The notes beneath the pieces are model-generated. The model saw only the letters and a list, made by a program, of their open reading frames with translations, did not search any database and was not told the origin of the DNA. Both the position numbers and the translations under genes were made by a program. Positions 3,929-45,312 of a stretch of 64,000 bases of DNA are shown here, piece by piece. This stretch comes from Bacteroidales bacterium (lineage in GTDB: Bacteria > Bacteroidota > Bacteroidia > Bacteroidales > UBA7960), in contig SKRM01000026.1 of the NCBI GenBank assembly GCA_007118495.1, positions 62,001 to 126,000 of the forward strand, read 5' to 3'. The stretch's first letter is position 1, and each line of letters opens with the position of its first letter.

Positions 3929-4708
3929 TTACTTCTCCTCCTTTTCTTCGGGTTTCTCCTCCTTTTTGGTCTCTTCTTTTTCTTCTGCCTCTTCTTTAGT
4001 GGCTTCTTCTTTAGCTTCAGGAGCTTCAGTGGCTTCTTCTTTGGCTTCAGGAGCTTCAGTGGCTTCTTCTTTAGCTTCAGGAGCTTCAGTGGCTTCTTCT
4101 TTGGCTTCAGCAGCTACAGGAGCTTCTTCTTTGGCTTCAGGAGCTTCAGTGGCTTCTTCTTTGGCTTCAGCAGCTACAGGAGTTTCTTCTTTGGCTTCAG
4201 GAGCTACAGGAGCTTCTTCTTTGGCCGCATCTTCAGCTTTCAGGTTTTCTTTGGCACGTTTCTTTGCCAGCTCAGCTGCTCTTGCTTCGTTTACCTTGCG
4301 CTCTTCTTCATGGGCTTTTTTTGCCGTGTCTTTGGCTTCAAGGTCTTTATCTTTCTTTGCTTTTTCCAGTTTATCCTGTTTTTCTTTCAGCCAGGCCTGA
4401 AATTTTTCATGTGCCTGCTCTTCGGTAAAGGCACCTTTTTTTGCGCCTTTAAGCAAATGGTGCATCATCATTACACCCTTGTTTGAAAGGATGCTACGAG
4501 CAGTATCGGTGGGTTGGGCCCCAACCTGCACCCAGTAAAGTGACCGGTCAAAATTAATATCAATGGTAGCTGGGTGGGTCATGGGGTTGTAAGTGCCAAG
4601 TCTCTCAATGAATCTTCCATCTCGGGGTGCACGACCATCCGCAACTACCAGATGGTAAAATGGTTGCCCTTTTTTACCTTTTCTCTGTAGTCTGATTTTT
4701 GTTGGCAT
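3929..4708 (-). CDS. rpsP: 30S ribosomal protein bS16 with long repetitive C-terminal tail
   Basis: Residues 1-85 are a standard bS16 core ([20 protein letters not shown] start, [20 protein letters not shown] region), which binds 16S rRNA early in 30S assembly. The family is usually 80-90 residues and longer in Bacteroidota, but this protein is 259 residues. Residues 90-160 form a charged helical, probably coiled-coil segment. Residues 161-238 are about eight ten-residue units of the type [20 protein letters not shown], followed by a Glu/Lys-only end. The tail is acidic, unlike most ribosomal proteins, and is probably disordered and surface exposed; its role is unknown. It is first in an rpsP-rimM pair. 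Confidence 0.95.
3995..4228 (-). repeat. in-frame 30-bp tandem repeat in the rpsP tail
   Basis: About eight copies of a 30-base unit (GCTTCTTCTTTGGCTTCAGG on the plus strand plus 10 bases) encode the ten-residue Glu/Ala/Pro/Lys blocks of the S16 extension. Units differ mainly at the codons giving TEAP or PVAA. Copies are close to identical at nucleotide level, which points to recent expansion by slippage or unequal recombination, and copy number may vary between strains. Confidence 0.9.
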
Positions 4709-31938: not shown

Positions 31939-32727
31939 TCATATTATCTCAACCGAACTCTTTGGCAGCCAACCCAATCGACCATTTTCAAGTTTTACTT
32001 CATACCAATCACCTACCTCGGTCAAGATAAATACCTTTAGTCCCTCATGCACAGCAAAAAGATCAACGCCTCGTTCACCGGGCGAACTTTTTGCAGTTGT
32101 TCTTTGCGCCATGACAATGGCTGATTCTCTGACATGATTCAAATTGTATTGGCGATTTGCAGCATACCAGCTAACTAACGACATAAGCAGAAATACCAAA
32201 GCCAAAGAGAAGAGTATTTTCCTGAATAATGGCGTCCCTGACAACATCATAACTGTCAGGCTAATACATGCCAGGAAAAGGCCGGCTATGATCATTACTG
32301 CCCAGGTGTCTGTATGGAACCAGCCAACGAATCTTTCTCTCCAGTTCCAAATAAACAATACAGGTAAGGGTTCAACCTGGTCAATGGTTTTTTGCCTGAC
32401 CAATTGCAGGTTGTGTTTCGTGGCATCATCAGAGGGTTTTAACCTGAGGGCACGCTCGTAATTCAGAATTGATTGTCCGGTTGATCCTGATTTAAAGTAG
32501 GCATTCGCCAGATTATAATACAGGTAGGGTGATTCCCAACCCGCATCCCTGATCTGCTCATATAGCATAATGGCCTGGTGATATGAACCTTCAATATAAG
32601 CTTTATTGGCGGCTTCTATAGAGGCAGATGGATCTATTTCCTGCTCTGCCCTGCACAAAAACGGGGCATGCAACAGTGCTGCCGCCAGTATGGTTAAAAT
32701 GAAAGTTCGCATACGGATCATGGTCAT
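31939..32727 (-). CDS. batE: BatE, TPR and SH3-like protein of the Bat operon
   Basis: A 262-residue membrane protein. It has a signal peptide (about 1-27), two TPR repeats (about 37-105: AYIEGSYHQAIMLYEQI, YNLANAYFKSG), two membrane segments (about 140-160 and 165-187) and a C-terminal SH3-like domain (about 200-262) ending GRLGWLPKSSVEII. This order matches BatE. It overlaps the batD stop by 4 bases (ATGA), so translation is coupled. It is the last gene of the operon, and no terminator fits in the 3-base gap to the convergent Spy-like gene. Confidence 0.88.
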   Translation of the reverse strand: MTMIRMRTFILTILAAALLHAPFLCRAEQEIDPSASIEAANKAYIEGSYHQAIMLYEQIRDAGWESPYLYYNLANAYFKSGSTGQSILNYERALRLKPSDDATKHNLQLVRQKTIDQVEPLPVLFIWNWRERFVGWFHTDTWAVMIIAGLFLACISLTVMMLSGTPLFRKILFSLALVFLLMSLVSWYAANRQYNLNHVRESAIVMAQRTTAKSSPGERGVDLFAVHEGLKVFILTEVGDWYEVKLENGRLGWLPKSSVEII

Positions 32728-34592
32728 GAACTTTGATTTCGCAACTTTTTTTCAATATTTACAATGGTTTCCATTGCTTTTTCATAGGTTTCATGCATGG
32801 GGCTCATCTGTCCGGCAGGTGAAAACCTTGCAAATTCACACTCCTCAAGACCCTCAAGAAACCTTTTAGCCAGCTCAACAGGTATCTGCCGGTTTTCAAA
32901 AGCAGCAGTTACGTTGTCTTTGTTAAGTTTAGCCACCGGAATATTCAGGCGATCTGACACAAAACCCCATAATGCCATGAATACCTCATCATAAAATGCC
33001 CCCTTGTCTCCATTTTTCATGAATTTCTCTGCATTTATGAGTCTTTTCCGGGCAACCTTTCTTGCCTGTCGTGTTTTTAGCAATTGTTGATCTTTCCTCA
33101 AATCGGTGTATCTGAACCATATGATTATGAAAACCACGAATACCAAAACAGGCAGTAAGGTCAACAGATAAAACCCCGTACTTTTATAGAACAAGCTATT
33201 TGCCGGTCTCCATCTGACAGGTTTTGTGTATATAAAGAGGATATCTTCGGCCAGTGACTGAATATCTGATCTTTGCCAACCTTCGCCTCTACCTGCAATT
33301 GCTTCACCTGTAACTTCAAGTTCAAAAGGTCCGGCACTCAGGGTAACATACTCTTCCTGTTCAGGATCAAAATAACTGAACTCTACCCCAGGTATGTCAG
33401 CCTGTCCTGGTTGTCGGGGAATTATAAGGTAATCGAATGTTTTTGTACCTGTTATGCCCCCGGGGCCAGTATTGATCTGGTCAGTAATCTGGGGGTCAAA
33501 TATATCAAGCAGTGGAGGGAATGTAATTTCTGGTTGATCCATTAGTCGCAAGTTTCCTCTGCCATCAATACGAATAATTAAGTTGGCCGCATCATTTACA
33601 GCCAGGCTTTGCTGGTTTAATTCTCCTGACATGGTAAACCGACCCACCAGGCCATGAAACTGGGCAGGTCTGCCTTGCACCGGCAGGGGCCTGACATTTA
33701 GTACAACAGCATTAGACCTTTCTGCATGCCTCACTGATTGAAAAGCATCGAAAGGCGTACCACTGAAAAAATCATCAAAGAAACTCCTTCCGCCTGGTCG
33801 CTGGGGCGCCCGCATTCTCACTGACATTTCAACTTCAATGGGTTCAATACGGATCTCACCGCTGCGTTGCGGAAAAACTGCGACTCTTCTAATTTCGGCC
33901 ACATTATAAGTTTGCCCGTTCAGGGTTTCGGTTGATACCGAATGTTGACCACTGCCACTAATATTTTCATGCCAAAGTGCCTGATACGATGGCAGGGTTT
34001 CGATGCTGTAATTGGTAATGGGCAGTCTGGTATAGAGCAGATACCTGATAATAACCTGTTCACCCTGAAATGGTGACGTATTGTCAGCTATGGCCCTGAT
34101 GAAAATGTCATCGCTGTCTGGTGTTCCTGTCTGTGTTGGTTGATCGGCAGGGCGTGCAGGTGAAGGAGTTGCCCTGGTAGCGGCATCAGCAGTTACCCTG
34201 ATTTCAGCAGCTTCAGATGTGTATGATTGACCGTTAATCTCTGCCTGAGCCGGTGGTATTACATAGGTTCCTTCAGTCGGGGCTTCGAGGGTATAGGTGT
34301 AAGATACAGAAATGGAGGTGGTTACCTGATTATTGATGATCTGTGTAGACGTACTGGATGATTGACTTGGGCCCGAAATGAGCCTGAAAGGGCTGAATAA
34401 AGGAGCCTGAAACCCATCGGGACGGGCATTAACTGAGTAACTTATGTTAAACCTTGCACCTGGTGCCACTTCAGAAGGGGCTGAAACACTAAGCCTGACC
34501 TCATCGGCGTAGACATATACGGCTCCGGGCAGCAGCAGGCCTGCCAGGATAAAGCTAAGCTTACATATGAAGGGCTTTATATTTACTACCAT
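32724..34592 (-). CDS. batD: BatD, Bat operon membrane protein
   Basis: A 622-residue protein with signal peptide (about 1-29), a large periplasmic part of Ig-like beta domains (about 30-450; GARFNISYSVNA near 43, PFQGEQVIIRYLLYT near 178-192), one membrane segment near 470-490 and a cytoplasmic helical tail. This is the BatD/oxygen-tolerance family. Bat proteins aid survival of oxygen exposure in Bacteroides and were first described there. The start overlaps the end of batC by 7 bases. Confidence 0.9.
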   Translation of the reverse strand: MVVNIKPFICKLSFILAGLLLPGAVYVYADEVRLSVSAPSEVAPGARFNISYSVNARPDGFQAPLFSPFRLISGPSQSSSTSTQIINNQVTTSISVSYTYTLEAPTEGTYVIPPAQAEINGQSYTSEAAEIRVTADAATRATPSPARPADQPTQTGTPDSDDIFIRAIADNTSPFQGEQVIIRYLLYTRLPITNYSIETLPSYQALWHENISGSGQHSVSTETLNGQTYNVAEIRRVAVFPQRSGEIRIEPIEVEMSVRMRAPQRPGGRSFFDDFFSGTPFDAFQSVRHAERSNAVVLNVRPLPVQGRPAQFHGLVGRFTMSGELNQQSLAVNDAANLIIRIDGRGNLRLMDQPEITFPPLLDIFDPQITDQINTGPGGITGTKTFDYLIIPRQPGQADIPGVEFSYFDPEQEEYVTLSAGPFELEVTGEAIAGRGEGWQRSDIQSLAEDILFIYTKPVRWRPANSLFYKSTGFYLLTLLPVLVFVVFIIIWFRYTDLRKDQQLLKTRQARKVARKRLINAEKFMKNGDKGAFYDEVFMALWGFVSDRLNIPVAKLNKDNVTAAFENRQIPVELAKRFLEGLEECEFARFSPAGQMSPMHETYEKAMETIVNIEKKLRNQSS

Positions 34593-35314
34593 TGTCTAAG
34601 TGTTCTGACAGTTTGGGTGCTTTTTTCTTGTCTGTTTATATTTTCCTGTATGGAGGCCTCCTGTCTGTTTAGTGCATCAAGAATTCGACGGGCATCTTCA
34701 GGAGATAATTCATCTGGCTGATGCCGGGGTGTTTGTTCCGATTCAGGTGTCTTGTCATGTTCACTGTCACCCTGATCGCTATCATCATGGTCGTTCATAT
34801 CGGGTGAGCCCTCTACATCGCTTTGTTCATCATCACCTTCACCCTGGTCTGCCTGCGAAGACTGGTCTTGTGGAGGCATTTCTTCCAGAAGCTTTTGGGC
34901 ATATGCAAGATTATACCGGGTATCTTCATCGTCGGGTGACAACCTCAGAGCGTGTTTAAAGGCATCAACACTTTCAGTAAACTGCCCGCTGCCCAGAAAG
35001 GTATTCCCCAGATTATGCCAGGTATTGGCCAGCGCCTGATCATTTGGAGCCTGGTGGGTGAGGGTCTCCAAAATGGATGCAGCTTCATCCATTTTCCCTT
35101 GCTTATATAATGCGTTGGCAAGATTGAACCATGCCCTGAAATTATTTGTGTCATGCTCAAGCGATTGCCTGTAGCTTTTTTCGGCTTCAGCAAAGTGTCC
35201 TTCATTAAAGTAACTATTCCCCTGCCGCAATAACTGCGTGGCATCGCTTGCACGCACTAAGTTAAAGGGCAAAAGCAGGAAAATGCATACAAATAAAAAG
35301 AACCTCGTTGTCAT
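34586..35314 (-). CDS. batC: BatC, TPR protein of the Bat operon
   Basis: A 242-residue protein with a signal peptide (MTTRFFLFVCIFLLLPFNL...), three TPR repeats at about 25-130 (YFNEGHFAEAEKSYRQSLEHD, WFNLANALYKQGKMDEAA, WHNLGNTFLGSGQFTESVDAF), and an acidic low-complexity segment (about 145-200, Asp/Glu/Ser/Gln). I chose the ATG at 35314 over the one at 35395, since it gives a clean signal peptide and removes a 62-base overlap with batB. Likely a periplasmic scaffold for BatA/BatB complexes. Confidence 0.88.
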   Translation of the reverse strand: MTTRFFLFVCIFLLLPFNLVRASDATQLLRQGNSYFNEGHFAEAEKSYRQSLEHDTNNFRAWFNLANALYKQGKMDEAASILETLTHQAPNDQALANTWHNLGNTFLGSGQFTESVDAFKHALRLSPDDEDTRYNLAYAQKLLEEMPPQDQSSQADQGEGDDEQSDVEGSPDMNDHDDSDQGDSEHDKTPESEQTPRHQPDELSPEDARRILDALNRQEASIQENINRQEKSTQTVRTLRQW

Positions 35315-35333
35315 AAAACACTGTTTTTTTTGA

Positions 35334-36380
35334 TCAACCAAATATGTTGATTTTTTGAAACCATTTGTTCTTTCTTTCCATAACAAACAACTCAATCAAT
35401 AATAAGAGTAATGCCAGAGCTGCTGTAATATGTGCCTTACTTTCATAATCAGCAAATATAACTCTTTCAAATTCATGCTGTTCCATATCGCGCATCATTT
35501 CAAGAATTTGCTGCAGACCCATATCTGCCCCCGAACCATGTCTGAAAATGCCACCGGTTATGGCTGCCATTTCTCTCAGTGTTTGCTCATCATACCTTGT
35601 GATCACGGTGTTCCCTTCATGATCTCTCAGGTATCCGATATGTCTGTCATTTTCAAACTGAGGAACAGGAGCCCCTTGCCTGCTTCCAACACCCACAGTA
35701 TGGATCACGATTCCCATATCTCTGGCCCTTCTGGCTGCCTCCAATGGATTGTCTTCATGGCTTTCACCGTCGCTGATCAGGATAATTACCCTGCTGTTTC
35801 CATTGTTATCAGGAAACGCGCCAATGGCCCGGTCTATGGCCGACTCAATTAAAGTCCCCTGTTCGGCAACCGATTGGGTATTGACAGGGGCAAGGAGCAT
35901 CTTGACGGCCTCATGATCGGTTGTCAGGGGAATTTGCAACTGTGAGGAGGCGGCAAAAACAACCACCCCGATCCGATCATTATCAAGCATGTCAACAAGA
36001 CGGTTTACGCCCATTTTAGCCCTTTCAAGACGGTTTGGCCTGACATCTTCAGCCAACATGCTGCTGCTTACATCTAATGTTACAATGATATCAATCCCCT
36101 CTATTTTAGCCTCTTCAATCTGACTGCCAGTTTTTGGTCCCATGGCAGTCAGGATAATCATCGCCATAGCCAGTATAACCAAACAAAATTTATACCAATG
36201 TCTCATGGCAGATGCAAGTGGTGCCATTTGCCTGATAATGTTTTCTTGCCCCAATGTTTTGACGGCTTTTCTCCGTTTGTACATATGTAACAAGAAAAGC
36301 AGGAAAAACAACGGAATCACCAAAAAAAGGCTCACCAGCAAGGGGTATTCAAAACGAATGATATCTGTCATAATCAACAC
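35334..36380 (-). CDS. batB: BatB, von Willebrand A membrane protein
   Basis: A 348-residue protein with two N-terminal hydrophobic segments (about 11-30 and 58-80), a vWA domain (about 95-290) with intact MIDAS D-x-S-x-S in VTLDVSSSM and a late T/D pair (LISDGESHEDN), and a C-terminal membrane helix. With BatA it is thought to form the integrin-like core of the Bat complex. A second ATG three codons later (36371) is an equally good start. It follows batA after 13 bases. Confidence 0.9.
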   Translation of the reverse strand: MLIMTDIIRFEYPLLVSLFLVIPLFFLLFLLHMYKRRKAVKTLGQENIIRQMAPLASAMRHWYKFCLVILAMAMIILTAMGPKTGSQIEEAKIEGIDIIVTLDVSSSMLAEDVRPNRLERAKMGVNRLVDMLDNDRIGVVVFAASSQLQIPLTTDHEAVKMLLAPVNTQSVAEQGTLIESAIDRAIGAFPDNNGNSRVIILISDGESHEDNPLEAARRARDMGIVIHTVGVGSRQGAPVPQFENDRHIGYLRDHEGNTVITRYDEQTLREMAAITGGIFRHGSGADMGLQQILEMMRDMEQHEFERVIFADYESKAHITAALALLLLLIELFVMERKNKWFQKINIFG

Positions 36381-36393
36381 GGTTTTGAAAATT

Positions 36394-37386
36394 TTATGGC
36401 ACAGTTCTCAGCCATGTGTAGCGTAAAAAAGATTCAACCCCCAAAAAAAATAGTGCCAGCAGCACAAGAATGATATATTCATCCTTTACCCGGGTAAATT
36501 CTTGTATGTCAATTATTGATCTTTCCAATTGATCTATCTCTTCATAAATTGATTCTAATGTTTGCTTATCTTCAGCCCAAAAGTACCTGCCGCCGGTCAT
36601 AGCAGCTATTTCTTGCAATAGTTCTTCGTCGACAGGGATCTCCACGTCCTGGTACTGTACACCAAAAGGCGTCTGGAAAGGGTAGGGGACGGGACCCGAT
36701 GAGCCCACGCCAATGGTATATACCCTTACGCCATACATGGCTGCAATTTCTGCTGCCGTGAGCGGATCAATAACACCGGTATTGTTTATGCCGTCGGTTA
36801 ACAACACAACAACCCTGCTTAAAGCTGTACTCTCACGCAGCCGGTTCACAGCGGTAGCCAGGCCATCGCCAATGGCTGTACCATCGGCAACCATGCCTGT
36901 TGTTGCCTGGCTGATGAGTTCTTTTACCAAAGCATGATCAGTGGTAAGCGGAGATAATGTGAAACTTTGGCCGCTAAAAACAGTAACTCCGATCCTGTCA
37001 TCAGGTCTGCTCGAAACAAAGTCAATGGCCGTTAACTTTGCTGCTTCCATGCGGTTAGGCTGAAAGTCTTCAGCAAGCATAGAACCACTGATGTCTAAAG
37101 CGATCATGATTTCGACACCTTCAAGGCTGGTTTGGCTGAGTACCGACTTTGTCTGTGGTCTTGCCATGGTCGTGATAAGCAGAGCCAGAGTCACCATCCT
37201 CAAAATAATAGGCAGGTGGATCAGGTGTTGTCGAAAGCTTTTGATTGTGGCTGAGTAATATTTGGTATGCACAAACCTGATGTCGGCCAACTGCTTTTTA
37301 TTTTGGTAGATATACCAGACCACCAGGGTTGGTATGAGCAAAAGCCCCCAAAGAACATAAGGGTATGCAAATATGATATCACCCAT
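36394..37386 (-). CDS. batA: BatA, von Willebrand A membrane protein
   Basis: A 330-residue paralogue of BatB: two N-terminal helices (about 7-26, 58-76), a vWA domain with MIDAS IALDISGSM near 93-101 and VVLLTDGINNTG near 195-206, and a C-terminal helix (about 305-325). All metal-site residues are present. Its start overlaps the end of the upstream Bat accessory gene by 8 bases. Confidence 0.92.
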   Translation of the reverse strand: MGDIIFAYPYVLWGLLLIPTLVVWYIYQNKKQLADIRFVHTKYYSATIKSFRQHLIHLPIILRMVTLALLITTMARPQTKSVLSQTSLEGVEIMIALDISGSMLAEDFQPNRMEAAKLTAIDFVSSRPDDRIGVTVFSGQSFTLSPLTTDHALVKELISQATTGMVADGTAIGDGLATAVNRLRESTALSRVVVLLTDGINNTGVIDPLTAAEIAAMYGVRVYTIGVGSSGPVPYPFQTPFGVQYQDVEIPVDEELLQEIAAMTGGRYFWAEDKQTLESIYEEIDQLERSIIDIQEFTRVKDEYIILVLLALFFLGVESFLRYTWLRTVP

Positions 37387-38326
37387 TTGTTTCTTGTTTA
37401 TCTCCGTTTACCGGCATGGTTAACTGTATAAGCTTAAGCGCCTGTTCGATGGCGTTCTCATGGCTCTCTTCACCGGGTCTGTATTTGGCAAATTTGACCA
37501 GGTCGGCTAATTGTAGTGTATCTTTCAGGATATGTAAGGCCTCCCGGTCAGGGTTCAGTTCGCTGAAAGCTTCCAGAATCTCGGCAGTAGTCATTTCCAT
37601 GGCTTGTAATTGAAAACGTCTGCTGATGTAAATTCTGATGATATTTGTAAGCTCACTGTGGTGCTGTTTGACACCAGTTTTTTGCCAAAGCTTTTTTCGT
37701 CTGAGGGTTTCAAGACCCGAAATGGCTGCAATATGCGCAGGAACTCCCGGATCGTAGGCGAGTTTCTCAACAGCTCTTTCAGGTTTTTGTTTTTTGCTTC
37801 GCCTCCAGAACCAATAAACAATGCCTGCAAGCAACAAGGTTGCTATAATGTAGGGCAGAAATTGTCTGAGCCCTGCTGGAATATGCCATATGGGTTTAAT
37901 GTCACGGTAGCCCTCTTCCATGTTTACATCTACACCACCAACCTGTAAAAGCAGGGCGCGGGTTTCAAGTTGTAATGTGTCTTTATTGGAAATGTATAAA
38001 AAATCAAGGGGGGGGATTGGAAAAAAACCATCTTTCCAGGCGGTTACCATCCATTTTTTTGTCACTAAAGTTGAGAATTCATCTTTTTTTACCGAATCGG
38101 CAACATGGTGTCTAATGATTTCTATATCTGCCGTAAGGGTGTCATGGAGCTCAGGCCAGATAAGTTTACCCGATACCGGAACCTCAGCCACTATGAAAAA
38201 TTCAGTTTGCTGCCCTATGATAATTTGATCGGTTTTGAGTTCAGCCCGCACAGTCTGACCTTGCACACCAAAGGGATGTACTAGCAAAAAACCGGTCAGC
38301 AGCAATAAGATTGACTTGGGCATCAT
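37379..38326 (-). CDS. Bat-operon accessory membrane protein (BatD/DUF4381-like)
   Basis: A 315-residue protein with signal peptide (about 1-23), a beta-rich periplasmic part (about 24-150) resembling the start of BatD, a membrane helix at about 158-176 and a cytoplasmic domain (about 190-300) with WQKTGVKQHHSELTNIIRIYI and MTTAEIL, like DUF4381-type proteins of MoxR/vWA operons. It lies between the DUF58 gene and batA, 13 bases after the former. The name varies among genomes, so I give no symbol. Confidence 0.75.
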   Translation of the reverse strand: MMPKSILLLLTGFLLVHPFGVQGQTVRAELKTDQIIIGQQTEFFIVAEVPVSGKLIWPELHDTLTADIEIIRHHVADSVKKDEFSTLVTKKWMVTAWKDGFFPIPPLDFLYISNKDTLQLETRALLLQVGGVDVNMEEGYRDIKPIWHIPAGLRQFLPYIIATLLLAGIVYWFWRRSKKQKPERAVEKLAYDPGVPAHIAAISGLETLRRKKLWQKTGVKQHHSELTNIIRIYISRRFQLQAMEMTTAEILEAFSELNPDREALHILKDTLQLADLVKFAKYRPGEESHENAIEQALKLIQLTMPVNGDKQETNG

Positions 38327-38339
38327 AACTAATCTGGTA

Positions 38340-39212
38340 TTAATAGTGGCTCCTTTTTTGAAAAAACTTCATCAATGGGGGCACGTAATCTTTATCTGAT
38401 GAAATATAAACTGAGTCAACTCCCGCCCTTGAAAAAGCCCTTTTCAGGAAAACTTCATGTTCATTTACCTGATATGTAATATACTCTCTGAGCTTTTTGT
38501 TTGAAGTATCAAGCAGGTATGTCTGACCAGTTTCCGGGTCGCTGAATCTGATCAAACCCAAAGCAGGTATTTGCGACTCTCTTGGGTCATTTACTCTCAA
38601 ACATATGAGATCATGTTTTCTGGCCACTATTGAAAGTGCATCTTCAAACCCTTTGCTGTGAAAGTCTGAGATCAAAAATGCAACAGAACGTTTTTTTATG
38701 ACATTTCGTAAATACTTGAGGGCCACGGACAGGTCAGTGCCTGTATGCTTGGGTTTGAAGTCAATAAGCTCTCTGATAATTCTGAGAATATGGGTGCTGC
38801 CTTTTTTGGGTGGAATAAATTTTTCAATCTGGTCACTGAAAAAAATGACTCCAACCTTATCATTATTGGTTATGGCTGAAAAGGCCAGTATGCCGGCTAT
38901 TTCAGCAATGAGTTGGTCTTTTGGCTTTCCGGCAGCACCAAAAGTTGTTGACCCGCTCACATCTATGACCAACATAACGGTCATTTCTCTCTCTTCATCA
39001 AAAACCTTGACATAGGGGTGGTTAAAACGGGCGGTAACATTCCAGTCAATGCTTCTGATATCATCACCCGGGTGATACTCCCTGACTTCGGTAAATGCCA
39101 TACCCCTTCCTTTAAAGGCACTATGGTAATGCCCGGCGAAAACCTGTCTCGACAGTCCGCGGGTTTTGATCTCGATCTTTCTAACCTTTTTGATCAGCTC
39201 TTTGGCTTCCAT
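38340..39212 (-). CDS. DUF58 protein of the Bat operon
   Basis: A 290-residue soluble DUF58 protein. The hallmark YHPGDDIRSIDWNVTARF is near 47-64 and the vWA-like MIDAS LVIDVSGSTTF near 82-92. It lies 25 bases after moxR, the typical partner, whose ATPase activity is thought to remodel vWA-protein targets. Compared with the paralogue at 8710, it is a little shorter and has an intact DVSGS in place of DNSSS. Confidence 0.92.
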   Translation of the reverse strand: MEAKELIKKVRKIEIKTRGLSRQVFAGHYHSAFKGRGMAFTEVREYHPGDDIRSIDWNVTARFNHPYVKVFDEEREMTVMLVIDVSGSTTFGAAGKPKDQLIAEIAGILAFSAITNNDKVGVIFFSDQIEKFIPPKKGSTHILRIIRELIDFKPKHTGTDLSVALKYLRNVIKKRSVAFLISDFHSKGFEDALSIVARKHDLICLRVNDPRESQIPALGLIRFSDPETGQTYLLDTSNKKLREYITYQVNEHEVFLKRAFSRAGVDSVYISSDKDYVPPLMKFFQKRSHY

Positions 39213-39237
39213 AATGCTGGCAGTTTATTGCCGTTAA

Positions 39238-40224
39238 TCAGGGTACTTCAACGGTATTGAGAATGTCACCTATGATGTCTTCAGTAGTGATATTTTCAGC
39301 TTCGGCCTCGTAGGTCAGACCAATGCGGTGGCGAAGTACATCCGGACAAACTGCCCTGATGTCTTCAGGAATCACATAGCCTCTTTGCCTGATAAATGCA
39401 TAAGCCTTGGCTGCCATGGCCAGGTTGATGCTGGCTCTTGGTGAGCCTCCGTAGCTTATCAGTGGCACCAGGCGGTCAAGTTTGTATTGATCAGGGTAGC
39501 GGGTGGCAAATACAATATCGGTAATGTAATTTTCAATTTTTTCATCAAGGTATACTTCTCTCACTACTTTTCTGGCCCGGATAATCTGCGATGGTTCTAT
39601 TATAGCACTGGTGGCAGGAAAGACCTGTTGCATGTTTTGCCTGAGTATCTCTTTTTCATCTTCTTTTCCGGGATAATCAATAACTACCTTCATCATGAAA
39701 CGATCTACCTGTGCCTCAGGCAGGGGATAGGTGCCTTCCTGCTCAAGGGGATTCTCGGTAGCCAGGACCAGAAAAGGCTCATCAAGAAAATATGTCTGGT
39801 CACCAATGGTTACCTGACGCTCTTGCATGGCCTCAAGCAGTGCGCTCTGCACCTTGGCGGGCGCCCTGTTTATTTCATCAGCCAGAATGAAATTGGCAAA
39901 AACTGGGCCCTTTCTTACCACAAACTCTTCGGTTTTCTGGCTATAGATCATGGTGCCAATGAGGTCAGCCGGAAGCAGATCAGGCGTAAATTGTATGCGG
40001 CTGAACTTTGCCTTTATGGCCTGTGCCAATGACTTAATGGCCAATGTTTTTGCCAGACCAGGAACACCTTCAAGCAAGATGTGGCCATTGGCAAGCAAGC
40101 CAATAAGCAACCGATCAACCATCTCTTTCTGGCCAATTATTACCTTCTGCATTTCAGCAGTGAGCTGGTTCACAAAAACACTCTCCAGCCTGATTTTTTC
40201 ATTGAGCTCTCTAATATCTGTCAT
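39238..40224 (-). CDS. MoxR-type AAA+ ATPase
   Basis: A 328-residue AAA+ ATPase of the MoxR group. Walker A is GVPGLAKT (near residue 50), Walker B FILADEINRAP (about 105-115), and sensor 1 ATENPLEQEGTYPLPEAQVDRF is spread over 155-176. It is the first gene of the Bat operon and likely powers assembly or metal loading of the BatA/BatB complex. I chose the ATG at 40224: the one at 40254 would place the first codon inside a -7 promoter element. Confidence 0.93.
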   Translation of the reverse strand: MTDIRELNEKIRLESVFVNQLTAEMQKVIIGQKEMVDRLLIGLLANGHILLEGVPGLAKTLAIKSLAQAIKAKFSRIQFTPDLLPADLIGTMIYSQKTEEFVVRKGPVFANFILADEINRAPAKVQSALLEAMQERQVTIGDQTYFLDEPFLVLATENPLEQEGTYPLPEAQVDRFMMKVVIDYPGKEDEKEILRQNMQQVFPATSAIIEPSQIIRARKVVREVYLDEKIENYITDIVFATRYPDQYKLDRLVPLISYGGSPRASINLAMAAKAYAFIRQRGYVIPEDIRAVCPDVLRHRIGLTYEAEAENITTEDIIGDILNTVEVP

Positions 40225-40251
40225 TTCTGGTATGTCATTGAAAGTACGAGG

Positions 40252-40259
40252 CAAAAATA
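40252..40259 (-). promoter_or_regulatory. -7 element of the Bat operon
   Basis: TATTTTTG on the minus strand matches TAnnTTTG and lies 27 bases before the chosen moxR start. No TTG at -33 is seen. Confidence 0.5.
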
Positions 40260-40358
40260 TCTTTCCCTAAGATATGGGTGACATGTTTATAGTTAAAAAA
40301 TGTTAAACGACACAAAATCAGGTAATTATAAAATAAATGAAAAAATATTGTTAAAAAA

Positions 40359-40391
40359 TTTGGAAAATAAATAAAAATGGTATTACATTTG
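40359..40391 (+). promoter_or_regulatory. promoter of the ABC transporter / GntR operon
   Basis: TTTG (40359-40362) and TACATTTG (40384-40391) are 21 bases apart. Transcription should start near 40398, inside the inverted repeat described next. Confidence 0.7.
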
Positions 40392-40392
40392 T

Positions 40393-40416
40393 GGTGTACT
40401 AGTATAGTAGAACACT
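40393..40416 (+). promoter_or_regulatory. putative operator for the YtrA-type GntR regulator
   Basis: GGTGTA (40393-40398) and AACACT (40411-40416) face each other across 12 bases, and the spacer contains a second inverted pair TACTA...TAGTA (40397-40409). This resembles the AGTGTA-N-AACACT repeat that I recall for Bacillus subtilis YtrA. It covers the predicted transcription start, where a bound repressor would block initiation. The likely ligand-responsive repressor is the GntR protein at 42045. Confidence 0.6.
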
Positions 40417-40430
40417 AAAACAAAACAGAA

Positions 40431-41270
40431 ATGGTTAATATAGAACAACTGAAGTTTGGCTATACAAGAAAGAAAAACTTGTTTAGTCAACTGGATCTGG
40501 AACTGACTCCCGGCAATGTCTATGGCTTGCTTGGAAAAAATGGAGCCGGAAAAACCACCCTGTTGAAATTAATTGCTGGTCTTGTATTTCCCCAATCGGG
40601 CAAGTGCCAGGTGAATGGTTTCGAGGCAGGGCAGCGGATTCCCCAATGTCTTGAGGATATCTGCTTTGTTCCGGAAGAATACCATTTGCCTGCCATAAGC
40701 ATCAGCAGGTATGTCTCATTAAATGCACCTTTTTATAAAAGTTTTGATCATGACAAGCTCAAATGGCTTTTGAAAGAGTTTCAGTTAAAGTCGGGAGATA
40801 AGCTTAACCAGCTTTCATACGGACAAAAGAAAAAGTTCATCCTTGCTTTTGGGCTGTCAACATCTGCAAGGTTGTTACTGATGGATGAGCCTACAAACGG
40901 TCTGGACATTCCTTCAAAGAGCCAGTTCAGGAGGGTTATTGCCGCCTCATTATCTGAAGAGCAGAGCGTTTTGATCTCAACACACCAGGTACGTGACCTT
41001 GAAAGCCTCATTGATCCTATCATCATTATTGATGAGGGCAAGATCATATTTAATCAGGATGTTGATAACATTACCCGCACATTGTCATTCGAAGTTTTGC
41101 CTGAAATTGTCGAAAACCGGCAACCCTTATATTATGAAGAGGGGCTGGGAGGCTATGCGGCCATTACACCCAATATTCAGAAAAAAGACACCCGCCTCGA
41201 TCTGGAATTGTTGTTTAACGGTGTTATTGACAACGCAAAACGAATCAATCAAACTTTTAATGCATCATAG
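40431..41270 (+). CDS. ABC transporter ATP-binding protein
   Basis: A 279-residue ATPase: Walker A GKNGAGKTT near 35-43, signature LSYGQKKK near 130-137, Walker B RLLLMDEPTNGLD near 148-160, and switch His in STHQVRD near 184-190. It resembles the YtrB/CcmA-like ATPases paired with YtrA-type GntR regulators, often linked to cell-wall antibiotics or envelope stress. The C-terminal 70 residues are variable. First gene of the operon; stop at 41270 is 4 bases before the permease start. Confidence 0.92.
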   Translation: MVNIEQLKFGYTRKKNLFSQLDLELTPGNVYGLLGKNGAGKTTLLKLIAGLVFPQSGKCQVNGFEAGQRIPQCLEDICFVPEEYHLPAISISRYVSLNAPFYKSFDHDKLKWLLKEFQLKSGDKLNQLSYGQKKKFILAFGLSTSARLLLMDEPTNGLDIPSKSQFRRVIAASLSEEQSVLISTHQVRDLESLIDPIIIIDEGKIIFNQDVDNITRTLSFEVLPEIVENRQPLYYEEGLGGYAAITPNIQKKDTRLDLELLFNGVIDNAKRINQTFNAS

Positions 41271-41274
41271 AACC

Positions 41275-42042
41275 ATGGAAACCATAAAGTATTTCAATAT
41301 CAACAGATTGTACTTGCTTACAAGGAGACAAATCTTGTCGAATGCGTATGGCTGGCTTATCGCTTTTGGTGCAGTAGCTGGCTCATTGCTTGTGATCTCA
41401 CTGCTGGTTGCCATTTCACGCACTTCAGAGTTGACAAGTTTAGACGGCTTGTATCTCTCGGTTATGTTTATTGGAGGCTACGTGTTTACGAGCAACATAT
41501 TTGCTGAACTTCACCAGTCACAGAGATCATACCAATTCCTTACCCTTCCGGTTTCGGCCACTGAGCGTCTGGTAAGTGCGTGGCTTATCACAGCGGTATT
41601 TTTTCCCGTAATCGCTTTGCTGGGAATGGCCATTATTGTATTACTGGCCAATTTAATAGCTTCATTTACTTTTAACATTACACCATTTCAGCAGGTTTTT
41701 TCTGAGGCTAATTTTTTAGCAATCAAAGTGTATTTTGTTACACAGTCAGTATTTCTGCTGGGTGCAACCTATTTCAGAAAGAATAACTTTCTGAAAACCT
41801 TACTGGCCCTTTTTGTAGCACTTGTTATTTACCAGCTGATCATTGCACTGGCGGGCTGGGCATTATTTTACCCCCTGGTAGACGGACCCCGGATGCAATT
41901 TGGTTCAGGTGCCATCAATACAGAAATGGAAACACTCTTTCTTAACCGTATACCCGGTGTAGTGTCATTTATCTTCTGGTACCTTACAGTTCCGTTCTTT
42001 TTGGTCACCACATGGTTTAGTTTAAAAGAAAGGCAGGTGTAG
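41275..42042 (+). CDS. ABC transporter permease
   Basis: A 255-residue membrane protein with about six hydrophobic segments (about 20-45, 55-75, 100-130, 150-175, 180-205, 225-245), of the type that pairs with the preceding ATPase. Its frame is open far upstream, inside the ATPase gene, but that extension is a frame shadow; METIKYFNINRLYLL at 41275 is the sensible start (an ATG at 41260 is also in frame). The substrate is unknown. It ends 2 bases before the GntR gene. Confidence 0.88.
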   Translation: METIKYFNINRLYLLTRRQILSNAYGWLIAFGAVAGSLLVISLLVAISRTSELTSLDGLYLSVMFIGGYVFTSNIFAELHQSQRSYQFLTLPVSATERLVSAWLITAVFFPVIALLGMAIIVLLANLIASFTFNITPFQQVFSEANFLAIKVYFVTQSVFLLGATYFRKNNFLKTLLALFVALVIYQLIIALAGWALFYPLVDGPRMQFGSGAINTEMETLFLNRIPGVVSFIFWYLTVPFFLVTTWFSLKERQV

Positions 42043-42044
42043 TT

Positions 42045-42419
42045 ATGGAATTTAATGACAGTCAAGCCATTTATTTGCAAATAGCTGATATGCTATGCGA
42101 GCGCATCCTTAAAAGACAATGGAAGGCAGGGGAGAAGCTTCCTTCTATTCGTGACGTTGCGGTACAGGTTGAGGTAAACCCCAATACAGCCCTTCGTACT
42201 TTCAGTTTTCTCCAGGAAAAGGGTATTGTTTTCAATAAAAGAGGCATAGGTTATTTTGTGACTGATGACGGCTTTGAAAAAACTCTTGAGTTCAAAAAAG
42301 AGTCTTTTATCACAGAAGAACTTCCAAAGATGTTCAACACCATGGATGTTTTGAAAATGAGGACAAAAGACCTGGAACATTATTATGAGAAATACAGGCA
42401 GGAGAAAAAAGCAGGGTAA
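42045..42419 (+). CDS. GntR family transcriptional regulator, YtrA subfamily
   Basis: A 124-residue regulator: a GntR winged helix at about 5-70 (AGEKLPSIRDVAVQVEVNPNT is split over 25-45) and a short helical C-terminal part of about 50 residues without the large ligand domain of FadR or HutC types. That size marks the YtrA group, whose members repress their own ABC operon. Translation begins 2 bases after the permease stop. The probable operator is at 40393-40416. Confidence 0.92.
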   Translation: MEFNDSQAIYLQIADMLCERILKRQWKAGEKLPSIRDVAVQVEVNPNTALRTFSFLQEKGIVFNKRGIGYFVTDDGFEKTLEFKKESFITEELPKMFNTMDVLKMRTKDLEHYYEKYRQEKKAG

Positions 42420-42463
42420 GCTTGCGGTTTTGATCCTGACCGATATAAAACAAAATATAAAAC

Positions 42464-43219
42464 ATGAAAACGACCAATAAAATACTACTAACAGCCTTTT
42501 TGATCATTATTGCGGCAAGTCTTGCACTGATGGTCTATGTGAGAACGCAGGTAAGTGCAGATATGTTCCGCGGTGTAGAAGGAAGTATGCGTGTTATAGA
42601 ACAGAGTAGGGTAGTTGACAGCTTTCAGGAGATGGATATAAGGGGTGGAATATCTGTATATATTTATCCCGACACAACTCAGTTTATAAGGGTGGTAGCA
42701 GACGACAATTTGCACGATTTTATCCAGACTGAATTACGCAGAGGTGTTTTGTCACTGAGCATGGAACGGCATGCATCTAACTATGACAAGCTTGAGGTGC
42801 ACGTGGGAGCACCTGCATTTGTTGATATCAAGGTGTCGTCGGGGGCAAAATTATTCGCCAATGCACCCCTGGTAGGAAAATCATTTTCACACATAGTGCA
42901 AACCGGAGCCCAAAGTAACTTACATTTGTATGTTGAAAGGCTTTATGTAAAGGTCCAGGCCGGAGCTACAGCCAATCTTGCAGGAGAGGCCAGGAACGTC
43001 GAAATGGTCAGCCAGGCAGGAGCTTTTGTATATGCAGGAGATTTGGTTATGCAAGATTGTGATCTTCAGGCCAGGGCCGGTTCAATCAACCATCTGCATA
43101 TTTTAGGCACTTTAACCGGGCGGGCCAGGCAGGGAGCCATTATTCAGCTTACAGGAAACCCTGACAAAAGTGGCTTTAGTATGCAACAAAACGTCACCAT
43201 TGATGTAAGGCGTGAGTAA
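42464..43219 (+). CDS. GIN-domain (DUF2807) envelope protein
   Basis: A 251-residue protein with an N-terminal hydrophobic signal/anchor at about 7-27 followed by a beta-helix-like GIN domain (DUF2807, about 45-250) with FQEMDIRGGISVYI and repeated short beta units (SSGAKLFAN, QTGAQSNLH, QAGATANLAG, QAGAFVYAG, RAGSINHLH) spaced about 20 residues apart. Such proteins are frequent beside YtrA-type or LiaF-like genes in Bacteroidota. It lies 44 bases after the GntR gene and may share that operon. Function in the periplasm or outer surface is unknown. Confidence 0.85.
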   Translation: MKTTNKILLTAFLIIIAASLALMVYVRTQVSADMFRGVEGSMRVIEQSRVVDSFQEMDIRGGISVYIYPDTTQFIRVVADDNLHDFIQTELRRGVLSLSMERHASNYDKLEVHVGAPAFVDIKVSSGAKLFANAPLVGKSFSHIVQTGAQSNLHLYVERLYVKVQAGATANLAGEARNVEMVSQAGAFVYAGDLVMQDCDLQARAGSINHLHILGTLTGRARQGAIIQLTGNPDKSGFSMQQNVTIDVRRE

Positions 43220-43230
43220 AGACAAGATCT

Positions 43231-43956
43231 GTGATTAAAGAAAGAGTCAAACAATTGTTTTCGTATGCAGGCATTGACCTGACCAGGAATATGGCCTATG
43301 ACCGCTTGACAAGAAAAATTATGCAGCAGGTCATAGGCCCTTCATCAAATTGCATAGATGCCGGGAGCCACCAGGGCGAAATGCTTGACTTAATGCTCCG
43401 ATTGGCGCCTGAAGGAAAACATTATGCTTTTGAGCCTATTGATTTGTATTACAGTAAGTTATGCGAGTTGTACGGCGACAGGGCCAGCATTTCACCTTAT
43501 GCCCTTGCTGACAAGAATGGATGCGGACAATTTGTATATGTTGTTAACGACGCAGCTTACAGTGGGCTACGCAGGCGATCATATGCTGTCAGCAAGCCAG
43601 AGATCAGAGAAATTGAAGTGGATATAAGGCGGCTCGATGATATTATTCCTGATGACGTCAACATAGATTTTATGAAAATTGATGTTGAAGGTGCTGAATA
43701 TCTCGTTATGCAGGGAGCAATGAAAACCATCCGGCGAAGTAAACCAATTATTGTATTTGAATTCGGAATGGGTGCCAGTGATCATTACGAAACCAAACCG
43801 CACGATGTATTTGATTTTTTAGTGGCAGCATGTGCGATGAAAATTTCGTCACTAAAAAAGTTTTTAAAAAATCAGGAGCCTATTACATTAAATGAATTCA
43901 GCAATTATTATTACCAACAAACAGAGTATTATTTTGTAGCATTTCCAGAGGCATGA
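43231..43956 (+). CDS. FkbM family methyltransferase
   Basis: A 241-residue SAM-dependent methyltransferase. The SAM motif I is CIDAGSHQGEM near 46-56, motif post-I YAFEPIDLYY near 68-77, and the FkbM hallmark DFMKIDVEGAEYLVMQGA near 148-165. Members O-methylate sugars, polyketides or lipids; the substrate here is unknown. The start is GTG at 43231, 11 bases after the GIN-domain gene; the first internal ATG is 20 residues later. A hairpin terminator follows. Confidence 0.88.
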   Translation: MIKERVKQLFSYAGIDLTRNMAYDRLTRKIMQQVIGPSSNCIDAGSHQGEMLDLMLRLAPEGKHYAFEPIDLYYSKLCELYGDRASISPYALADKNGCGQFVYVVNDAAYSGLRRRSYAVSKPEIREIEVDIRRLDDIIPDDVNIDFMKIDVEGAEYLVMQGAMKTIRRSKPIIVFEFGMGASDHYETKPHDVFDFLVAACAMKISSLKKFLKNQEPITLNEFSNYYYQQTEYYFVAFPEA

Positions 43957-43963
43957 TTATGAC

Positions 43964-43986
43964 AAACCAGGCCAGCAGCCTGGTTT
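43964..43986 (+). terminator. hairpin terminator after the FkbM gene
   Basis: AAACCAGGC and GCCTGGTTT form a 9-bp perfect stem around CAGCA. The T run is short, so efficiency is uncertain. Confidence 0.6.
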
Positions 43987-44038
43987 ATTAATCCAGTTAA
44001 ATGTACTATAATTAATATTATGTTAAATGGTAAGTATT

Positions 44039-44074
44039 AAAAGAAGGGAAGCATTTGGTATAGCTCCCCTCTTT
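44039..44074 (-). terminator. hairpin terminator after the TPR gene
   Basis: On the minus strand GGGGAGC and GCTTCCC form a 7-8 bp stem (one G-T pair) with a 10-base loop, followed by TTCTTTT. It lies 18 bases after the TPR gene. Confidence 0.5.
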
Positions 44075-44091
44075 CATGTGATAATTGTCTT

Positions 44092-45312
44092 TTAGTCTAT
44101 TTCTTCTTCACCGAAGTATTGTCTGTAAATATCTTCGAGTTCTTTAAGTTTTTCAGGCTGATTAGTACGTGCATACAATTCAACCAGCGACATGATCACG
44201 ATTCTGTAACTGGGGTCATCTTCGTCAATCATATCCTTGCTTCTTTCGAGATATGGCTGGGCTTTTAACCAAACTTCCTGAAAGCGTTTTTCATCCTCTT
44301 CATATTGGGCAAAATCATGGGTTGCCCTGAGACGCTCATCGGCTTCTTCAAAAATGCGGATACCTTTGTTAAAGTACAATACACCCAAATTGTATACTGC
44401 ATCAAAGTAATCTGGCCTTAAGCTGATGGCATTTTCGTATGCCTCAATGGCCTGCTCAAATGCGAAATCTCTTTCATCGCTGGTATAGGTTGTATCCTGT
44501 GCCATTCTGTCAAAATTGGCTCCAAAAGCAAAATACAGGTTGGGATTGTCCGGGTCACGTTCAATGGCCAAAGAAAGTACATCTCTTGCCTGTGGTACAT
44601 CACCAGTGAAAATATGGATGTTTGCCTCAGTGAAGATCAGGTCAAGGTTGTCAGGATACTTTCTGCGTCCTTCCTGGATTAATTCCGTTCCCCTAAGGGT
44701 ATCGCCGAGAGCCAGTGAAACATTGGCCAGTGAAGAATAGATATAAGGCTGGTCGTAGTTCATTTCTCTCAGATCTTTATACATCTCAAAGGCCTGTTCA
44801 TAACTCTCTCCAAGTTCTGCTGAAAGAGCTGCGTTGTAAAGTGTTGTGGTATCAACAGCACCAAACTCCTTACCCATTTCGAAGGCCCTGAGGAAATAAC
44901 TGCTGGCGTTATTCCATTCACTGACGTTGTAGGCCTCTACCCCTTGATTAAAGATAAGTTCAGACAGTAAAAGCAAACCCTGCTGAATTGGCAAAATGTG
45001 TTCGTCTTCTGTATCATATTTTATAGCCATTTGCATGGCTTCATCGGCCACATCAACCGGATTGGCTGAAAGTTGCCTTATGGCTGGTTCTTCAGCCAGT
45101 GCGATCTCCATGAAAACCTGGGCTTTGATAACCCATGCTTCTGCGTTGGTCTCAGTCTCTGCGTGTTCAAAGGCAGCTTCAATAAACTCTTTGGCCTCAG
45201 CAATATTGCCTCTGTTTAACTGTCGCTCTGCCCTTCTGATATCTCTGCTTTGTGCATACAGTATGGAGGCTGAGAAGACCATTAATATCAAAACTAATAC
45301 TGTCCGTTTCAT
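44092..45312 (-). CDS. secreted TPR repeat protein
   Basis: A 406-residue protein with a signal peptide (about 1-20, cleavage after LYA-QSR) and many TPR-like repeats from about 25 to 390 (NRGNIAEAKEFIEAAFEHAE, VEAYNVSEWNNASSYFLRAFE, AIEAYENAISLRPDYFDAVYN). It should be periplasmic or outer-membrane associated and act as a scaffold; no specific role can be assigned. It has a strong promoter of its own in the gap after gyrA. Confidence 0.85.
   Translation of the reverse strand: MKRTVLVLILMVFSASILYAQSRDIRRAERQLNRGNIAEAKEFIEAAFEHAETETNAEAWVIKAQVFMEIALAEEPAIRQLSANPVDVADEAMQMAIKYDTEDEHILPIQQGLLLLSELIFNQGVEAYNVSEWNNASSYFLRAFEMGKEFGAVDTTTLYNAALSAELGESYEQAFEMYKDLREMNYDQPYIYSSLANVSLALGDTLRGTELIQEGRRKYPDNLDLIFTEANIHIFTGDVPQARDVLSLAIERDPDNPNLYFAFGANFDRMAQDTTYTSDERDFAFEQAIEAYENAISLRPDYFDAVYNLGVLYFNKGIRIFEEADERLRATHDFAQYEEDEKRFQEVWLKAQPYLERSKDMIDEDDPSYRIVIMSLVELYARTNQPEKLKELEDIYRQYFGEEEID

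Follow-up and report, generated by a model that had tools for sequence, protein, structure and literature searches.

The window analysed here is the whole stretch of 64,000 nucleotides taken from a Bacteroidales contig (SKRM01000026.1), in which the genes for an ABC transporter, a short GntR-type regulator and two further proteins follow a predicted promoter. The features of the locus, by position in the window, are:

40359 to 40391, plus strand: predicted promoter, with a -33 box TTTG (40359-40362), a 21-base spacer and a -7 box TACATTTG (40384-40391)
40393 to 40416, no strand assigned: candidate 24-bp inverted-repeat operator, predicted to extend from about -3 to +21
40431 to 41270, plus strand: first operon gene, encoding a 279-aa ABC transporter ATPase (PF00005)
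41275 to 42042, plus strand: ABC-2-like permease, 255 aa (PF12730, E 0.00034, under the curated cut-off)
42045 to 42419, plus strand: YtrA-type GntR regulator of 124 aa; the window's genome yielded no second PF00392 protein
42464 to 43219, plus strand: GIN/Toastrack protein (DUF2807, PF10988), 44 nt past the GntR gene
43231 to 43956, plus strand: FkbM-family methyltransferase, 11 nt past the GIN gene

The initial annotation had placed a candidate operator directly after a full TTTG-N21-TACATTTG promoter. Both boxes and the 21 bases between them were read directly in the sequence, and this promoter was the single full match to TTTG-N18-22-TAnnTTTG on both strands of the region 40230-44120. As TAnnTTTG sits at -12 to -5 in Flavobacterium (PMC9723704), the transcription start is predicted at about 40396, within the left arm of the repeat. 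A scan for terminators and for sigma-70 promoters, a promoter form that does not fit this phylum, gave no more hits than in its shuffles. On the minus strand, a -7-like box (TATTTTTG, 40259-40252) was seen in or beside the intergenic region shared with a divergent cluster (32724-40254, minus strand), which begins with a MoxR-family ATPase gene, followed by genes that by eye are Bat-like vWA genes; many of the related loci likewise have MoxR as their divergent neighbour.

The ATPase and permease genes adjoin the regulator gene in the same orientation, an arrangement kept in related loci, and the short GntR gene reported to begin at 42045 was confirmed and encodes 124 aa. The GIN protein, which by eye carries an N-terminal membrane anchor, and the FkbM protein had been proposed as possible members of the same unit. 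For GIN the gene order agreed with this throughout the window's family, as its gene was found on the same strand, 2-115 nt after the regulator, in all 29 fetched loci (L031-L059), whereas FkbM lay close behind it (7-88 nt past GIN) in only 10 of the 29, each from the window's genus. In four others FkbM was 0.85-1.7 kb from GIN, and in the fetched DNA of the remaining 15, where some contigs end soon after GIN, it was not found. Among 30 ATPase-anchored loci from the wider phylum, GIN was detected in just one. Therefore, the core of the unit is the ABC ATPase plus the regulator, GIN is a feature of the family, and FkbM is a lineage-specific addition at the level of the genus.

The candidate operator, GGTGTACTAGTATAGTAGAACACT, starts one base past the -7 box and ends 14 bases short of the ATPase gene. 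Read directly, it contains the arms GGTGTA and AACACT separated by 12 bases, as annotated initially, but these arms are complementary at just four of six positions. The letters of a second pair, TACTA/TAGTA, are also present in the spacer, but this pair is displaced by 1.5 bp from the outer arms' axis, which falls between 40404 and 40405; the inner triplets that are in register are CTA (40399-40401) and TAG (40408-40410). Around the outer axis, 9 of the 12 base pairs of the window copy are symmetric. When the 220-nt upstream region was subjected to dinucleotide shuffling, 22.7% of the shuffled sequences held a 24-mer of equal or greater symmetry, so that symmetry by itself carries no significance and was rejected as proof of a site. 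Arms of the form RGTGTA-N12-WACACY appeared in 0.045% of shuffles, a form picked only after the site had been seen.

Regulator relatives were collected from 59 related genomes, 44 of which had a match and 40 of which yielded a fetched region, and from 24 loci of a genome-contig collection. The ATPase start was present in 55 of these 64 loci (L031-L094), which with the window made 56, with 50 distinct upstream regions. In the nine others, the contig begins inside the gene (L032, L038, L071 and L074), no ATPase was seen (L056 and L085) or there were only weak GntR matches (L068-L070). Two Bacillota loci (L093 and L094), in which the site was absent with best scores of 13, were left out, so that 48 distinct Bacteroidota upstream regions remained, the window included.

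The consensus of the site was AGTGTAYTAGTTAACTARTACACT, to which the window copy conforms only weakly, matching 19 of 24 positions and differing at one base in each arm. The search of orthologous loci for the same repeat, proposed as a check in the initial annotation, found, in the 220 nt before the ATPase start of 47 of the 48 regions, a match to at least 17 of the 24 consensus positions. The remaining region, L063, scored 14 within that distance and carried its site (AGTGTACTATTAGACTATAACACT) 274 nt before the ATPase start. In L063, operator and ATPase are separated by a short reading frame (from about 1648), hence the unusually long distance; overall, the distance from site to ATPase start ranges from 1 to 274 nt. 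Scores of at least 17 were reached by 37 of 4700 shuffles (0.8%; 100 for each of 47 regions, with the very short region L050 left out), a test that is partly circular in that the consensus was derived from the 48 loci themselves. The conservation of the repeat is thus established, and it is the decisive evidence by which the earlier observation as a whole was confirmed.

Conservation within the site is strongest near the two ends, which contain GTGT and ACAC, and at positions 8-9 and 16-17, both of which read TA. Exact GTGT with ACAC was found in 60 of 78 loci and TA with TA in 71; both full arms, AGTGTA and TACACT, were exact in 29, all with a 12-bp spacer under a scoring that used ungapped 24-mers only. 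In L180, L181 and L187, which come from three genomes of the family f49, both arms have changed jointly to ACTGTA and TACAGT with the same operon downstream, and a comparison of these variants by eye with the residues of the recognition helix revealed no clear correlate.

Ten of the related genomes had no good match to the regulator. Seven of these also lacked an orthologous ATPase (E up to 1e-50), and in the other three (G012, G017 and G019) the ATPase is preceded by the site with 0, 1 and 0 mismatches, respectively, on contigs that end 360, 85 and 1 bases past the ATPase match. Therefore, these genomes provide no regulator-free negative control.

The association between site and regulator was also followed in 395 genomes from across the phylum, classed as Bacteroidota on the basis that searches with the same protein gave named relatives from Bacteroidales, Saprospiraceae and similar groups. 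With up to one mismatch, the pattern GTGTAYTAGNNNNNTARWACAC was found in 38 genomes, and an orthologous regulator (E 1e-39 or better, the next match being well apart at 2e-15) in 36. The pattern was present in 25 of the 36 genomes with the regulator, compared to 13 of the 359 without it (Fisher p = 9e-22). The pattern read backwards, used as a control, was found in 39 genomes, including 5 of the 36, and showed no association (p = 0.38). As the number of genomes with the pattern is not above this background, only its placement is special. Perfect matches occurred in 17 genomes, all 17 of which have the regulator.

A less circular test was provided by the 11 regulator genomes without a match in the pattern scan, which had been chosen by the regulator alone. 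Their best scores in the 400 nt before the ATPase were 16-21, and 9 of the 11 reached at least 18, a score attained by 0.14% of shuffles. The weak ones were L183 (17, at 157 nt) and L190 (16), equalled by 0.8% and 3.8% of shuffles, respectively. In total, 30 of the 36 regulator genomes were read through ATPase-anchored DNA and all scored at least 16, 19 of these having been picked by the pattern. The rest were the window's own genome (G000), one seen separately (G138), three assessed from coordinate distances only (G233, G363 and G438) and G403. The tie of the site to the operon and its regulator is thereby established, with G403 as the exception (1 of 36), in which no ATPase could be recognised next to the regulator and the site present there is merely a degenerate one.

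The perfect match of G403 lies elsewhere (L145, contig C26, around 4195-4218), with no YtrA-type operon in the surrounding 8.4 kb and, by eye, among reading frames that suggest a mobile element; it may be a chance site or a second target. Another locus, L193 (G109, contig C48), has a variant of the operator at 2115, some 50 nt upstream of a short and more distant GntR match (E 1.2e-13, from about 2191), which suggests from sequence that a paralogous GntR subgroup may use a similar site.

Within the window's own genome (2.63 Mb, 98% complete, 78 contigs), the site is the sole place with 0-2 mismatches. A second target was sought and rejected, as nothing else matched with up to two mismatches and the matches with three were fewer than those for a control pattern. 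This agrees with the usual situation in the YtrA subfamily, where a regulator has one operon and a single site.

The assignment of the regulator to this subfamily, made in the initial annotation, holds by sequence and by predicted structure. Residues 10-72 match PF00392 (43 bits, cut-off 27), and the predicted structure (pLDDT 92.4) consists of the DNA-binding domain followed by helices at 76-103 and 107-123, a model consistent with the short two-helix C-terminal domain of about 50 aa that is typical of YtrA proteins. Further subfamily traits are the location of the gene in an ABC-transporter operon, matched here by the adjacent co-oriented ATPase and permease genes, and a long palindromic operator of about 24 bp with GT and AC far from its centre (PMC6746942, PMC4494728), corresponding to the GTGT and ACAC near the outer ends of the site.

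By Foldseek, the nearest structures were short GntR proteins, with 3IC7 first and the Listeria proteins 4R1H and 3NEU and the C. glutamicum protein 2EK5/2DU9 behind it, whereas the Sulfolobus YtrA (6SBS) ranked further down. The order by VIA-align Z differed, with 3TQN, 4R1H, 3NEU and 2EK5 in the lead (14.7-14.9) and 3IC7 in 25th place (12.3, compared to the best value of 14.9); among the top 15 or so, short GntR proteins are mixed with the DNA-binding domains of other subfamilies at close Z values. Near full-length alignments were obtained with 2EK5, 2DU9, 3NEU, 4R1H and 3IC7, and 6SBS aligned over residues 1-78 only. R36, EVNPNT, R51, R66 and G67 are invariant among 20 aligned regulator rows. 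In the wider set a few regulators deviate, for example with a recognition helix that contains QVNPNT, NANT or NMNT, or with a wing that contains QQRG or NERG. L075 was omitted from the alignment A1 for an in-frame stop; in L046 and L075, which derive from one contig of a draft genome, the stop lies about 110 codons into the regulator gene. On sequence and predicted structure, this combination of traits places the regulator in the YtrA subfamily.

With the repeat conserved and the subfamily assignment upheld, the overall interpretation as a YtrA-type operator is supported. We consider it very probable, at roughly 87%, that 40393-40416 serves as an autorepression operator for the YtrA-subfamily GntR protein whose gene starts at 42045, lying over the predicted transcription start. 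Binding, dimer geometry, repression, the start site and the inducer are the parts of this scheme that we infer. The two GTGT/ACAC arms, separated by about two helical turns, would each be occupied by one winged helix-turn-helix of a regulator homodimer, and further contacts could be made at the inner TA steps. Since the site begins one base past the -7 box and the start predicted at about 40396 lies within it, the bound dimer would block RNA polymerase at initiation and shut off the ABC ATPase-permease-GntR(-GIN-FkbM) operon, the regulator's own gene included. An inducer would then release the dimer and the transporter levels would rise. By analogy with related systems, this inducer may be a membrane-active compound or cell-envelope damage, and it is likewise by analogy that the transporter could have the envelope-stress role ascribed to it initially. 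As the C-terminal domain is small and leaves limited space for a ligand, release by a protein was also considered. In this version, the regulator would be freed by the Toastrack (GIN) membrane protein encoded alongside it, or by the transporter itself, and not by a small molecule, so that the operon would be a membrane-coupled switch with its operator on the promoter, common to many Bacteroidota; we regard this version as unlikely.

Other explanations of the repeat were weighed against autorepression. The repeat could bind a different regulator, encoded elsewhere and controlling the same operon, and two points favour this: the assignment of the repeat to the operon's own regulator is a prediction, and the perfect match in G403 lies away from any detected YtrA-type gene. 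However, the site and the orthologous regulator coincide across the 395 genomes, the regulator is the sole GntR-domain protein detected in its genome, and the consensus arms are identical to those quoted for B. subtilis YtrA, all of which makes a different regulator quite improbable. Still less probable is an extended promoter or start region, kept for reasons of the sigma factor or of initiation. It is favoured by the spacing of exactly one base between the -7 box and the repeat in 44 of the 48 loci of the first set, but the 30 loci of the phylum set keep the repeat with this spacing in only 8, the repeat lies anywhere from 1 to 274 nt before the ATPase start, and a further copy with up to two mismatches is absent from the genome. 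A chance inverted repeat, with which the symmetry of the window copy would be compatible by the shuffle test above, is refuted by the conservation at orthologous loci and has a negligible probability.

A leader-RNA element, such as a hairpin or an attenuator in place of a DNA operator, was judged as improbable as an extended promoter. The repeat would be mostly transcribed (from about 40396), and symmetry over the expectation for independent columns was seen at the position pairs 2/23 (56 vs 50.1 of 68), 6/19, 11/14 and 12/13, with the largest excess in the last (43 vs 29.5 of 68). The other eight pairs are, however, at or below expectation (7/18, 25 vs 28.3; 10/15, 15 vs 22.8), and the excess at 12/13 and 11/14 falls in the centre, where a hairpin loop needs at least three bases but the site of a DNA dimer can be symmetric. 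In addition, the predicted start of the transcript falls inside the left arm, and no Rfam match was found in 40100-42600 at E up to 1. The RNA element was rejected on this absence of a match and on the mainly central excess; as symmetry peaks where a stem cannot pair and eight pairs show no excess, a DNA site fits better than an RNA stem.

The type of switch proposed here is already known, and it is mapped here in a phylum for which descriptions of it seem scarce. The comparative study of the subfamily counts 0 Bacteroidetes among the 229 YtrA regulators of its Table 2 (PMC4494728), and a search of the open-access literature found no characterised YtrA-type operator in Bacteroidota, in agreement with the initial annotation, in which no such operator was known for the phylum. 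The site provides YtrA-type regulators with a defined and testable operator in a phylum missing from that study's table, within a self-contained transporter switch whose regulator is present in 36 of the 395 sampled genomes of the phylum.

Among known systems, B. subtilis YtrA (operons ytrGABCDEF and ywoBCD) shares the consensus arms AGTGTA and TACACT, the short GntR protein and the ABC-transporter operon. Its operator is quoted as AGTGTA-13bp-TACACT in PMC8060467, which bears out the resemblance of the arms noted initially. As the spacer is 12 bp here and 13 bp there, the site is YtrA-like and not an identical operator. In addition, the GntR gene is the third of the operon here and the second in the B. 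subtilis ytr operon, and one target operon was found here compared to two for B. subtilis YtrA, whose operon is induced by cell-wall antibiotics. In S. aureus, the YtrA-subfamily repressor PmtR of pmtABCD has a 36-bp site that overlaps the transcription start (PMC5080381), and both PmtR and the Sulfolobus YtrA (PMC6746942) bind over the start and repress their own operons. The best NCBIfam model for the ATPase was PmtA and the second best for the regulator was PmtR, both far under the cut-off; the PmtR gene comes first in its operon, unlike the GntR gene here, and its inducers are PSM peptides.

The Sulfolobus acidocaldarius protein, YtrA-Sa, is likewise a short GntR with an operator over the start of its own operon, which includes a membrane protein (PMC6746942), but it is archaeal and, unlike the case here, has a 14-bp core motif and a compact dimer. 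The Xanthomonas citri YtrA-like site GGTG-N16-CACC (cited in PMC6746942) is also of 24 bp with the outer GTG and CAC equally spaced, although its outermost letters differ from those of the operator here and it belongs to another phylum. The Toastrack-ABC ATPase-permease-GntR operons of PMC11237479, the accessible text of which mentions no operator for them, have the same gene set around the regulator plus a DUF2884 lipoprotein, for which the five proteins of the operon here gave no Pfam match at E up to 0.001. The best sequence match of the regulator among solved structures was the GntR protein 3IC7 of B. thetaiotaomicron (E 6.9e-26), which was not mentioned in the open-access literature searched. 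3IC7 shares 72% identity over 120 residues with the regulator of L131, the operon of which carries the operator with a score of 21/24, and the site described here suggests a candidate target for this little-studied structure.
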